From NCBI RefSeq assembly GCF_000146185.1, contig NC_012778.1:700001-764000 (forward strand): DNA of 64,000 nucleotides. The letters are read 5' to 3'. The notes under the pieces were generated by a model. The model made no database searches. It was not told where the DNA came from and saw only the letters and a list, made by a program, of their open reading frames with translations. The translations under genes were made by a program, and so were the position numbers. Origin of the DNA: [Eubacterium] eligens ATCC 27750. GTDB lineage: Bacteria > Bacillota > Clostridia > Lachnospirales > Lachnospiraceae. Position 1 is the stretch's first letter, and each line of letters begins with the position of its first letter. Below are positions 3,166 to 61,706 of this stretch, piece by piece.

Positions 3166-3345
3166 TTATTTTTCAGGCTTAACAACATTAAGAGGCATCA
3201 TAAGATGATCTATAAGGATGCTGTAAGCTTTATCACCATTACCAGCTTTGAGATAATCAAAGTATTTCTTGTGTTCATCTAATGTACCAGTAATACGTCC
3301 ATCAACCTCAAGAGCTGACTGAGAAGTAAGTTTTATCAGATACAT
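3166..3345 (-). pseudogene. C-terminal remnant of a GntR-family (FCD domain) transcription regulator
   Basis: Read on the minus strand, 59 codons from an ATG at 3345 to a TAA at 3166 encode a helix-rich piece with the ending typical of FCD-domain GntR regulators: LDEHKKYFDYLKAGNGDKAY followed by SILIDHLM, matching the usual L-EH--I--AI--GD---A---M--H pattern. The frame stays open upstream to about 3420 but quickly loses similarity, and there is no DNA-binding domain. The lost 5' part is replaced by the promoter of the forward acetyltransferase gene. Best read as a decayed gene; an expressed orphan peptide is less likely. Confidence 0.5.
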
Positions 3346-3357
3346 TAGTCTTTTAAT

Positions 3358-3386
3358 TTGCCAATAAATAAATACTATGATATCAT
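3358..3386 (+). promoter_or_regulatory. Predicted vegetative promoter for the GNAT-hypB region
   Basis: TTGCCA (3358-3363) and TATCAT (3381-3386) are separated by exactly 17 bp, about 30 bp before the acetyltransferase start. Confidence 0.5.
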
Positions 3387-3416
3387 TAATTATTATGTAA
3401 TAAAGGAATGATTCAT

Positions 3417-3872
3417 ATGGATAATATTATTATAAGAAGCATGAAAGAAGAGGATTCTTCAGAAGTCCTTGAGATGATGAAGGTGTTTTATGCCTCACCA
3501 GCACTGCTTTCAGACCCTTCAGAGGATGTTATGAAAAGGGATATTGCAGATTGTCTTGGAGATAATCCGTTTATAGAGTGCTTTGTATTTGAGAATAACA
3601 CAGGTGTTATCATGGGTTATTCAATGGTTGCACACAGCTATTCTACTGAATGTGGTGGTAATTGTGTGTGGGTTGAAGATATATATATTAAGCCGGATTA
3701 CAGAGGAAAGAATATTGCAGGTGAGTTCTTTGAACATCTTGACAATATGTATGGAAAAGAAGCTGTCAGATTCAGACTTGAGGTTGAAGAGGAGAATGAA
3801 AGGGCAGTGAAAGCATATAAGAAGGCTGGATTTGAGAAGCTTGGTTATGTGCAGATGGCTAAGGATTACTAA
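3417..3872 (+). CDS. GNAT family N-acetyltransferase
   Basis: A 151-aa acyl-CoA-dependent acetyltransferase of unknown substrate. Seen: the N-terminal IIIRSMKEEDSSEVLEMM strand-helix, a central beta strand CVWVEDIYIKPDYRGKNIAG carrying the acetyl-CoA pyrophosphate-binding signature (R-G-K-N-I-A), and a C-terminal ENERAVKAYKKAGFEKLGY motif typical of the fold. An ATG at 3408 touches the AAAGGA ribosome site (3402-3407); the ATG at 3417 has correct spacing and is chosen. It sits 11 bases before the first hypB-like gene, so the two are probably co-transcribed. Confidence 0.85.
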   Translation: MDNIIIRSMKEEDSSEVLEMMKVFYASPALLSDPSEDVMKRDIADCLGDNPFIECFVFENNTGVIMGYSMVAHSYSTECGGNCVWVEDIYIKPDYRGKNIAGEFFEHLDNMYGKEAVRFRLEVEEENERAVKAYKKAGFEKLGYVQMAKDY

Positions 3873-51703: not shown

Positions 51704-51734
51704 TTAATATACAGCTTAATAAAGTGTATGATTG

Positions 51735-51767
51735 CTCCCGCAGGGCTTGTTCCTGCGGGAGTTTTTT
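51735..51767 (+). terminator. Terminator of nifJ
   Basis: CTCCCGCAGG pairs perfectly with CCTGCGGGAG (51752-51761), loop 7, then six T residues. Confidence 0.95.
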
Positions 51768-51873
51768 GTGGTGGGGAGAAGATAGGAAAATTGTGGGAAG
51801 TAAGGGTGTAAAGTTAAACTTTTTGAGAGAGGGATTCGTATATATATGTAGAAGAAAAGAAAAGCTGTGGCGG

Positions 51874-52121
51874 ATTGGACATTGAAGCAGAGTGAAGGCA
51901 GGTTGAAGTCCAAAAGGAACGAGAAAGAGAGGCGGATTGGACGTTGACGCGGTTGGGAGACAGGTTGAAGTCCAAAAGGAACGAGAAAGAGAGGTAGATT
52001 GGACGTTGAAGCGGAGTGAGCCACGGAGGAAGTCCAAAAGGAGTGAGAAATAGAGGCGGATTGGACATTGACGCGGTGGAAGCCACGGAGGAAGTCCAAA
52101 AGGAACAAGAAAGAGTAACAG
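51874..52121 (+). repeat. 62-bp tandem repeat array A (4 units)
   Basis: Units begin at 51874, 51936, 51998 and 52060, an exact 62-bp period. Each has a 42-bp core opening ATTGGAC(A/G)TTGA and closing GAAGTCCAAAA, whose ends pair (TTGGAC / GTCCAA) into a hairpin, then a 20-bp linker close to GGAACGAGAAAGAGAGGCGG. Units 1-2 share one version of the core middle (CAGGTTGAAGTCC) and units 3-4 another (CCACGGAGGAAGTCC). All three minus-strand frames stay open through it, but as a consequence of the repeat. The same core is found at 60249-60620. Confidence 0.9.
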
Positions 52122-59429: not shown

Positions 59430-60260
59430 GTGGGTAAATACATATATACATATATTGAAAACGGACAGATGTACGATAAAAGCCCTTCCTTTGCAGAATT
59501 ACTTGCAAAGGAGGGGCTTTCCTGCGAAAAAATAGTGACTGGCAGGATTGGTTATATTCGTGTGGAGAATCTTTTGGAAAAGATAAAAGATGCACAGTGG
59601 CTTGTGTTTACAAGTAAAAATGCTGTGGCTGGGTTTGCTTATAATATGGGGAAGATGGCTTGTGAAGGCGAGCCGGATTGTGATGGTGTGTTGAATGGAG
59701 ACAGTGTTGAAGCTTTTGGTGTGAGGAGCGGGTTTCCTGACGGTATTAAGATTGCGGTAGTCGGCAATAAAACTAAAGAAGCTCTAAGAACGGCATGCGG
59801 TTTTGAGGCAGACTTTGTATCATATAAATCTACAGGCTTGGAACTTGGAAGGAGTCTGATGAATATTGCAGCCGGCAAGATTGTATATCTGTGTGCCGAA
59901 GTCACAAGCGGTTCACTTGAGGAAGCTATGAAGGAGTATGAAAACTTAATTAAGATTCCAGTATATAGGAATGAATATGTTGATACATATGCAGAGTACG
60001 AAATGAAAGATATCAGTGATGTCTCAGGAATAGCTGTTACCAGTGGCAGCAGCGGTGAGAGAATAAAATGGCTGATTGACAGGCTTGGTGAGTCAGGTGA
60101 AGTCCCAGTGTTCAGCATTGGCCCTGCCTGCAGCAGAAAGCTTTTTGAGGCGGGCGTGAAAAAGAATAGGATAATTGAAGCTTGTGAGCATAGCTATAGC
60201 GGGCTGGTGGAAGCGATTAAGAAGTCAGCGGGGAAGCCGGAAGCGGGAATTGGACGTTAG
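59430..60260 (+). CDS. hemD: Uroporphyrinogen-III synthase, C-terminus formed by a repeat unit
   Basis: A 276-aa enzyme closing hydroxymethylbilane with ring-D inversion. Sequence conservation in the family is low; the evidence is the place after hemC plus the two-domain pattern, with LVFTSKNAVAGF, VVGNKTKEALR, VYRNEYVD, GIAVTSGSSGERI and a final IGPACSRKLFEAG. Start GTG 59430, 3 bases after hemC. The last 10 codons (about 60231-60260, GKPEAGIGR and the TAG) consist of repeat-array sequence: a linker followed by the first bases of unit B1, so the original end was replaced or extended. Confidence 0.85.
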   Translation: MGKYIYTYIENGQMYDKSPSFAELLAKEGLSCEKIVTGRIGYIRVENLLEKIKDAQWLVFTSKNAVAGFAYNMGKMACEGEPDCDGVLNGDSVEAFGVRSGFPDGIKIAVVGNKTKEALRTACGFEADFVSYKSTGLELGRSLMNIAAGKIVYLCAEVTSGSLEEAMKEYENLIKIPVYRNEYVDTYAEYEMKDISDVSGIAVTSGSSGERIKWLIDRLGESGEVPVFSIGPACSRKLFEAGVKKNRIIEACEHSYSGLVEAIKKSAGKPEAGIGR

Positions 60261-60620
60261 AGCAGAGAGCGGCACGGATGAAGTCCAAAACTGGGAAGCC
60301 GGAAGCGGGAATTGGACGTTAGAGCAGAGTGAGGCACGGAAGAAGTCCAAAACTGGGAAGCCGGAGGAGTGGATTGGACGTTGAAGCAGAGTGAGGCAAG
60401 GAAGAAGTCCAAAACCGGGAAGCTGGAAGCGTGGATTGGACGTTGAAGCAGAGTGAGACACGGAGGAAGTCCAAAATCGGGAGTCCGGGAACGTGGATTG
60501 GACGTTAGAGCAGCAAAAGGCACGGAAGAAGTCCAAAACCGGGAAGCCGGAGAAGTGAATTGGACGTTAGAGCAGCGGAAGGCACGGAAGAAGTCCAAAA
60601 CTGGGAAGCCAGAAACGAGA
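60249..60620 (+). repeat. 62-bp tandem repeat array B (6 units)
   Basis: Units begin at 60249, 60311, 60373, 60435, 60497 and 60559, again exactly 62 bp apart. The 42-bp core (ATTGGACGTT-AGAGCAGAGTGAGGCACGGA-GAAGTCCAAAA, split here at hyphens) matches array A; the 20-bp linker is different and close to CTGGGAAGCCGGAAGCGGGA. A linker copy (60231-60248) precedes unit 1 inside hemD. Core ends TTGGAC/GTCCAA can pair within each unit. It fills the hemD-cysK gap. No protein gene is credible inside it. Confidence 0.92.
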
Positions 60621-60642
60621 ATAAAGAAAAATAAAAAAGTAC

Positions 60643-60671: not shown

Positions 60672-60773
60672 AACATATAAAAATAGTATGTTTATGTACT
60701 GCATATACATAACACCTGATTCATGAATTGATATTAGAAAATGTGGAATAATACCACAAGAAAAGAGGATTGT

Positions 60774-61706
60774 ATGGGAAAGATATATAAATCAGCAGCA
60801 GATTTAATAGGTAACACACCACTTGTAGAAGTCGGACATATTGAAGAGAAGTTTGGACTTAAGGCAAGAGTACTTGTTAAGCTTGAATATTTTAATGCAA
60901 CAGGAAGCGTTAAGGACAGAGTTGCAAAGGCAATGATTGAAGATGCAGAGAAGAAAGGAATTCTTAAGCCGGGCGCAACAATTATTGAGCCTACATCAGG
61001 CAATACAGGAATCGGACTTGCTGCCATTGCAACAGCAAAGGGCTACAGAACAATAATAGTTCTTCCAGAGACTATGAGTGTCGAAAGAAGAAATATTATC
61101 AAGGCATATGGTGCAGAGATTGTACTTACTCCGGGTTATAAAGGAATGACAGGTGCTATTGCGAAGGCAGAAGAATTAAAGAATGAGATTGAAGGCAGCA
61201 TGATTGCAGGACAGTTTGTTAATCCTGCTAACCCGGATGCACACAGAAGAACAACTGGTCCAGAGATATGGAATGATACGGATGGAGAAGTTGACGCATT
61301 TGTTGCAGGTGTTGGTACAGGAGGAACAATTACAGGTGTTGGTGAATATCTTAAGTCTAAGAATGACAAGATTGAGATAATTGCAGTTGAGCCTGCAACT
61401 TCACCGGTACTTTCACAGGGCAAGCCAGGACCACATAAGATTCAGGGAATTGGAGCAGGTTTTGTTCCAGAAATTCTTAACACTAAGATATATGACAGCG
61501 TAGTTCCAATCGATAATGATGACGCATTCGAGTATGCCAGATTGATATCACACACAGAGGGAATTCTGGTTGGAATATCGGCAGGTGCAGCACTTTACGC
61601 AGCAATCGAGTGGGCTAAGAAACCAGAGAACGAAGGTAAGACAATCGTTGCACTGCTTCCAGACAGCGGCGACAGATATTACTCAACATCACTTTTTGAG
61701 AACTAA
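60774..61706 (+). CDS. cysK: Cysteine synthase A (O-acetylserine sulfhydrylase)
   Basis: A 310-aa PLP enzyme making cysteine from O-acetylserine and sulfide. Seen: DLIGNTPLVE, the PLP Lys in FNATGSVKDRVA, the PTSGNTGIGLA substrate loop, VGTGGTITGVGEYLK, and the C-terminal PDSGDRYYS. AAGAGGA lies before the ATG. Single-gene unit with its own promoter and terminator. Confidence 0.96.
   Translation: MGKIYKSAADLIGNTPLVEVGHIEEKFGLKARVLVKLEYFNATGSVKDRVAKAMIEDAEKKGILKPGATIIEPTSGNTGIGLAAIATAKGYRTIIVLPETMSVERRNIIKAYGAEIVLTPGYKGMTGAIAKAEELKNEIEGSMIAGQFVNPANPDAHRRTTGPEIWNDTDGEVDAFVAGVGTGGTITGVGEYLKSKNDKIEIIAVEPATSPVLSQGKPGPHKIQGIGAGFVPEILNTKIYDSVVPIDNDDAFEYARLISHTEGILVGISAGAALYAAIEWAKKPENEGKTIVALLPDSGDRYYSTSLFEN

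Follow-up and report, generated by a model that had tools for sequence, protein, structure and literature searches.

The analyzed window is a 64-kb stretch (G000:C1:700001-764000) of the chromosome C1 (2,144,190 bases) of a genome, G000, of 2,831,389 bases. Array B lies between a hemD-like gene and cysK, and array A lies downstream of a 1186-aa gene, which we take to be nifJ, encoding pyruvate:ferredoxin oxidoreductase (Table 1). The array B units start at 60250, 60312, 60374, 60436, 60498, and 60560, at intervals of exactly 62 bp, and each of them is a 39-bp TTGGAC-N27-GTCCAA element followed by 23 bp. The first-pass annotation had described six units at a 62-bp step, which was confirmed by locating the units and by Tandem Repeats Finder (period 62, 6.3 copies, score 511); its division of the unit into 42 and 20 bp was corrected to 39 and 23 bp. 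Array A shares the geometry of array B, with four units of 39 + 23 bp, and a decayed stretch follows it up to approximately 52140.

The hemD-like gene ends within the first array B unit, which at window positions 60250-60260 supplies its final codons and its stop. In the relatives G017 and G011, the stop codon of this gene precedes the first TTGGAC. For cysK, translation may begin at an ATG at 60774.

Table 1. Coordinates of the arrays and neighbouring features in the window
Feature	Position	Strand	Remarks
Array A	51875..52099	+	four units, geometry as array B
Intrinsic-terminator-like hairpin between the 1186-aa (nifJ) gene and array A	51734..51768	+	from a scan; coordinates counted by hand
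hemD, uroporphyrinogen-III synthase-like	59430..60260	+	matches below curated cut-offs
Array B	60250..60598	+	six TTGGAC-N27-GTCCAA cores, five N23 linkers, 62-bp step; the purine-rich strand is +
Array B, whole repetitive extent including linker-like flanks	60231..60622	+	Tandem Repeats Finder
cysK, cysteine synthase A, on the downstream side of array B	60741..61706	+	longest frame

Copies, orientation, and turnover of the arrays

The pattern TTGGAC-N27-GTCCAA occurred 83 times in G000, compared to once for the pattern read backwards, which is far in excess of chance. A total of 23 arrays were found, 20 on the chromosome and three on the 627-kb replicon C2; these are the 18 arrays first collected plus those at C1:376k, C1:1961.8k, C2:345k, C2:537k, and C2:541k. 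The three C2 arrays, which came from the model search, rule out the chromosome-only distribution at which the exact pattern had hinted. In the other genomes of the genus, the exact pattern was counted 19 times in G017 (backwards control, 1) and 16 times in G011 (control, 2). The remaining 19 of 22 had it once at most. The search model was built from 62 units on sequence alone and scored 150 candidates per genome, so that further copies are possible. It gave at least 105 matches in G000, at least 26 in G017, at least 21 in G011, two in G019, and one weak match in G015 (E 0.045); at an E value of 0.05, 17 of the 22 genus genomes had none among the 150 candidates.

A DNA search over 41 genomes gave matches in four, every one of the same genus. 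With a stricter exact pattern, 21 stretches were retrieved from 84,980 species genomes. Eleven came from the relatives G017 and G011 (Eubacterium sp. AF22-9 and Eubacteriales bacterium S34M_St_44), and the other ten, being scattered and without arrayed matches, are taken for probable chance matches. No virus in IMG/VR was retrieved by an exact-pattern search, and blastn against PLSDB, from which records of G000 or near ones are possibly omitted, gave no plasmid match.

One lone TTGGAC-N27-GTCCAA site with an interior unrelated to the family was present in three genomes (C1:1911813, G019 C2:42788, and G011 C35:28504). It was considered as an ancestral operator; in G000, it lies between two convergent gene ends, and it was judged a chance match. 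Two lone exact sites without a family interior, C1:1911813 and G017 C66:688, were dropped before the counts.

The GC skew of the chromosome switches sign at 1.00-1.04 Mb and again over the contig start, and the purine-rich strand agreed with the local skew in all 23 own arrays. Purine content, from which the array strand was assigned, is itself biased along with the skew; yet units from both chromosome halves align one way. Judged from gene calls by a simple script, both neighbouring genes were co-oriented at 14 arrays; at the other nine, one or both were opposed and the skew was still followed. The 1760k array is antisense to both of its neighbours. In G017 and G011 together, 16 of 17 loci agreed with the skew, the exception being G017 C66:688. 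The lone site of G000, C1:1911813, likewise opposes its local skew, and neither of the two has a family-like interior. The purine content was 80% in the interiors and 72% in the linkers, compared to 51-60% on the positive-skew strand in sampled stretches. At six of the 23 arrays, a terminator-like hairpin belonging to the upstream gene precedes the repeat; some arrays are inside probable operons, e.g., directly after thiS; the 1391k array sits between a stop codon and a ribosome-binding site.

The arrays turn over among close relatives. At hemD-cysK, G000 has six units, G017 four, G011 a single core (spacing 21), and G008 none. At the nifJ locus, there are four units in G000, one in G019, and none in G017, G008, and G013; near the start of L099 (G011 C36), an insertion-sequence-like end cuts the array of this locus close to the contig end. 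The 1373k, 1389k, and 1391k arrays were missing from all five relatives (G017, G011, G019, G008, and G013). The 2090k array was missing from G017, G011, and G019, where both flanks sit together; its flanks match different contigs in G008 and G013. Flank identities at the compared empty and filled sites were 74 to 100%. In the empty 1391k allele, the stop codon almost directly abuts the ribosome-binding site. At the four arrays compared, the flanks were changed on both sides, and no clear target-site duplication was seen by eye.

The additional 1.47 kb at 1389k also contains a 282-aa gene (L075:5689-6537, + strand; C1:1389688-1390533), which thus belongs to the same insertion as the array. Proteins 30-43% identical to its product occur in six other genus genomes. 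It was rejected as a mobiliser, being absent from G017 and G011 and having zero NCBIfam matches.

The first-pass annotation had also suggested a small mobile element; dispersal of the repeat across the genome is evident, and no mobiliser was found among the candidates considered, the Y1 transposase and the 282-aa protein. Since the arrays within one genome are far from identical, recent copying of resident arrays does not account for the new sites; a gain by recombination with array-carrying strains is possible. Some of the arrays missing from G017 may be assembly losses, since several G017 arrays stop at contig ends. The repeat is absent from 17 of 22 genus genomes and single arrays are missing from close relatives, so that a function cannot be essential at a given place. 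These observations are best read as an intergenic repeat family that is confined to this lineage and turns over rapidly.

Conservation of half-sites and spacing

The strictest part of the repeat is not a 42-bp core, but the inverted half-sites in the arrangement TTGGAC-N27-GTCCAA-N23-TTGGAC. What is conserved is an alternation of inverted half-sites (TTGGACNT), the distances between which are fixed at 29 and 33 bp, with a twofold axis every 31 bp in the arrays, about three helical turns. The spacings were counted in 36 clusters of G000, G017, and G011. Clusters were assembled from exact half-sites, and units were taken up when 10 or more of their 12 letters matched, which leaves decayed parts under-represented. 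Between neighbouring exact half-sites, the linker spacing was 29 in all 102 cases. The core spacing was 33 in 110 of 120 cases, with exceptions of 32 (six cases), 44 (three), and 30 (one); loci common to the three genomes are non-independent in both counts. The core and linker spacings differed with a Fisher p value of 0.002 when units were treated as independent. Since the linker spacing is invariant and the core spacing is not, the constraint is strictest on the two half-sites that stand 29 bp apart, which does not agree with a core-and-linker division. Nineteen more neighbour pairs had the same direction, 18 at 62 bp with a mutated half-site between them and one at 9 bp.

In the neighbour-joining tree of 69 own units, 11 substitutions fell in the 12 half-site columns, compared to 224 in the 27 interior columns and 230 in the 23 linker columns; the tree contains only units followed by the next one at exactly 62 bp, and length change is therefore judged from the spacing counts alone. 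Over 18 arrays, the half-site divergence was 2.9% within and 3.0% between arrays, values that are capped because a unit needed 10 or more of the 12 half-site letters to be collected. The interiors diverged by 24% within and 44% between arrays, and the linkers by 56% between arrays. The consensus, the divergence, and the tree exclude units in which more than two of the 12 half-site letters deviated or the purine content was below 52% on both strands. In 89 own units (the lone site C1:1911813 included), the half-site columns together with T7, T8, A31, A32, A39, A40, and A61 were nearly fixed; the remaining columns were much freer and purine-rich. The half-sites are not fully symmetric, in that position 6 is free and its counterpart, position 32, is nearly always A. 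The arrays at C2 537k, C2 541k, and G011 C34 kept the 33/29 steps with interiors that are very different by eye; C2 537k and G011 C34 have one core of 32 each. At C1:1961829-1962028 and C2:345156-345334, three cores are extended by 11 bp (spacing 44) with similar inserted letters, and this extension is about one helical turn.

The linkers had been called locus-specific, and capture of 20 bp of local sequence had been proposed. Compared by eye, they instead form one loose family, the types of which recur across loci and mix within single arrays. This recurrence argues against capture, and the corresponding sites of array-less relatives do not hold the linker as old local DNA. The suggested length constraint with phased binding is supported by the spacing, which is fixed despite heavy substitution, but the spacings of 32, 30, and 21 do not fit strict phasing. 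Variable periods at other loci, which were to count against the phasing idea, were seen rarely, in 10 of 120 core spacings and in the one lone G011 core at 21.

Compensating insertions and deletions were considered as proof of length selection, and the claim was dropped because the test was not above shuffles. TTGGAC was not enriched outside the arrays (62 observed vs 66.9 expected in 216 kb), which rules out the half-site as a DNA-uptake-like word. Higher-order patterns of 124 and 186 bp were noticed by eye within arrays.

Possible roles of the arrays

We tentatively favour, at somewhat less than an even chance, a fast-turnover intergenic repeat that may be kept as a spaced DNA array for a putative binding protein. 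This protein, possibly dimeric or else of a wrapping or bridging type, would read pairs of half-sites on double-stranded DNA, and selection on the half-sites and their spacing would arise from such reading. Double-stranded DNA is suggested since the spacing is kept where the sequence is not, since the long core variant adds approximately one helical turn, and since RNA loops require no fixed length. BIMEs serve gyrase or IHF, and arrays of 2-10 units may by analogy provide a cooperative platform between genes. Array length would change through unequal exchange that adds or removes whole units, as the 124- and 186-bp patterns suggest. The leading strand's strong purine bias would reflect a further constraint, distinct from the first. 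The core spacings of 32 (six cases) and 30 (one) and the G011 hemD-cysK spacing of 21 speak against strict helical phasing. The incomplete symmetry of the half-sites, the compensating-indel result that did not exceed shuffles, and the dispensability of the arrays at given places also count against the binding reading. A more specific version, which we consider rather doubtful, is an architectural protein that would read the inverted TTGGAC half-sites along the 31-bp axes and form a regular wrap or filament, the fork-oriented arrays thereby marking or insulating intergenic places in a direction-dependent manner.

The main rival is a selfish dispersed repeat (MITE- or REP-like), the arrays of which would spread, multiply, and disappear with no benefit to the host, and in which the half-sites and their spacing are recognised by a mobilising enzyme such as a transposase, recombinase, or nuclease; we regard it as a real possibility, though not a probable one. 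The absence of the 1373k, 1389k, and 1391k arrays from five relatives and of the 2090k array from three is what such an element would leave, as is the varying unit number at hemD-cysK (6/4/1/0) and nifJ (4 in G000, 1 in G019). Insertion into the single-stranded lagging-strand template would account for an orientation that follows the GC skew at every one of the 23 arrays. Moreover, an enzyme copying the unit and needing its geometry could leave the same marks as a binding protein. However, a search that covered one family, the Y1 transposase (PF01797), found no cognate enzyme, and no clear target-site duplication was recognised by eye. The arrays within one genome differ by 44-56% in their free positions and hence are no recent mutual copies, and the invariant N23 linkers between units are not obviously needed by a mobiliser. 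A neutral satellite, i.e., a functionless product of tandem duplication and gene conversion with a period inherited from one ancestral unit, is already disfavoured and seems very improbable. Although the 124- and 186-bp patterns suggest unequal exchange and the arrays are dispensable at several loci, drift should strike half-sites like interiors, and 11 substitutions in 12 columns stand against 454 in 50 columns. Furthermore, none of the 102 linkers had changed in length.

An element acting at the RNA level appears unlikely. Here, the purine strand would be transcribed and the TTGGAC/GTCCAA arms would pair into successive hairpins whose purine loops are unstructured, acting as an mRNA stabiliser, attenuator, or protein sponge. 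The arrays in probable operons (after thiS, and from stop codon to ribosome-binding site at 1391k) are consistent with this, and the eight-pair stem is 99% pairable. Position 5 changes from C to T in 8 of 89 own units with a G-U pair retained, a change that may also stem from CpG context. Of 16 two-unit RNAs (z -0.01 to -3.45), six reached z <= -2; the 16 fold shapes differed from each other, and palindromic arms alone would yield such z values and folds. No compensatory arm change was found in 62 units, a number not above shuffles; the 62 are a subset of 73 units less than 86% alike, from 128 collected, with 11 doubtful ones excluded. In a wider list of 158 units, which holds a few out-of-register duplicates, a paired change in both arms occurred once, at C1:1352609 (ATGGAC...GTCCAT), a unit kept out of the 62 by the purine filter. 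This change fits a DNA site with dyad symmetry and a hairpin in RNA or in a single strand equally well. The sRNA array proposed by the first-pass annotation is not borne out as stated, given zero covariation in the 62 units, with one paired double change outside the set, and the lack of a single common fold. Loop and linker lengths would also be expected to be free in an RNA, yet the linker is invariant; six of 23 arrays lie past a terminator-like hairpin, and the 1760k array would be transcribed antisense to both neighbours. At the gathering threshold, Rfam matched only an LSU rRNA and a tRNA in the window, and neither array A nor array B.

The strict spacing and the replication-direction bias make the putative array reader directly testable in a cultivable gut commensal, with any two units as bait. 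L. eligens strains may also be distinguishable by the arrays, used as a set of variable-number markers.

Comparison with known repeat families

The intergenic repeats compared are conserved as palindromes or modules, whereas the half-site spacing of the TTGGAC arrays is stricter than their sequence, and every array found tracks the replication direction. TTGGAC arrays were not described in the literature searched, most subscription papers being outside its scope, so that an earlier mention is possible; the comparison drew on PMC2817692, PMC3049150, PMC12306157, PMC2267715, and PMC3733652.

The known families closest to the TTGGAC arrays are REP/BIME and BOX elements. REP/BIME elements (E. coli BIME-2 and relatives) are intergenic, multicopy, alternating palindromes with regular spacing and variable unit number (PMC2817692). 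The TTGGAC arrays resemble them in being intergenic, in having many copies per genome, and in their regularly alternating orientation and variable unit number. However, they have 6-bp arms with 23- and 27-bp spacers in place of a compact 20-40-bp palindrome, the terminal GTAG or CGTC tag is missing from the unit consensus, and their orientation tracks GC skew in 23 of 23 cases. A RAYT/REP link was rejected, since the Y1 transposase did not co-occur with the arrays. PF01797, a model that includes ordinary IS200 enzymes and does not separate RAYT from IS200, matched in 13 of 22 genus genomes, ten of them without any unit, and did not match in G011, where the unit model gave at least 21 matches.

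BOX elements of Streptococcus pneumoniae are intergenic and modular, with a middle module repeated in tandem a variable number of times, and they lie on the leading strand in just 60.8% of cases (PMC3049150). The TTGGAC arrays are likewise intergenic with a tandem part of variable number. In contrast, end modules like boxA or boxC were not recognised by eye, the outer flanks being array-specific save for linker-like ends, and the fixed inverted half-site geometry does not appear in the consulted part of the BOX description (PMC3049150). CRISPR loci share the regular period (62 bp here) and the alternation of palindromic-ended parts with variable stretches. They consist of near-identical repeats and unique spacers, whereas in the 23 scattered TTGGAC arrays neither part is wholly conserved and the variable stretches are interrelated; no cas genes were recognised by eye in the starts of the proteins flanking the arrays. 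Minisatellite or VNTR loci, such as the mycobacterial MIRU, are dispersed intergenic tandem repeats whose copy number varies between strains. Unlike these, the TTGGAC arrays are constrained at the half-sites and their spacing, not over the whole unit.

G008 and G001 were scanned over 400 kb apiece for comparable arrays, which gave zero tandem repeats of period 58-66; as a positive control, the same scan recovered 15 of the 18 own array loci. G001, which has no TTGGAC arrays, carries other repeats on its C2. At L213:13920-14229, there is a tandem repeat of period 78 with four copies and a palindromic A/T-rich part. At L220:2213-2392 and 3325-3498, two tandem pairs of a 91-98-bp repeat with the common sequence CAAACTAAGCAAGTTGCC represent another repeat family of the genus.
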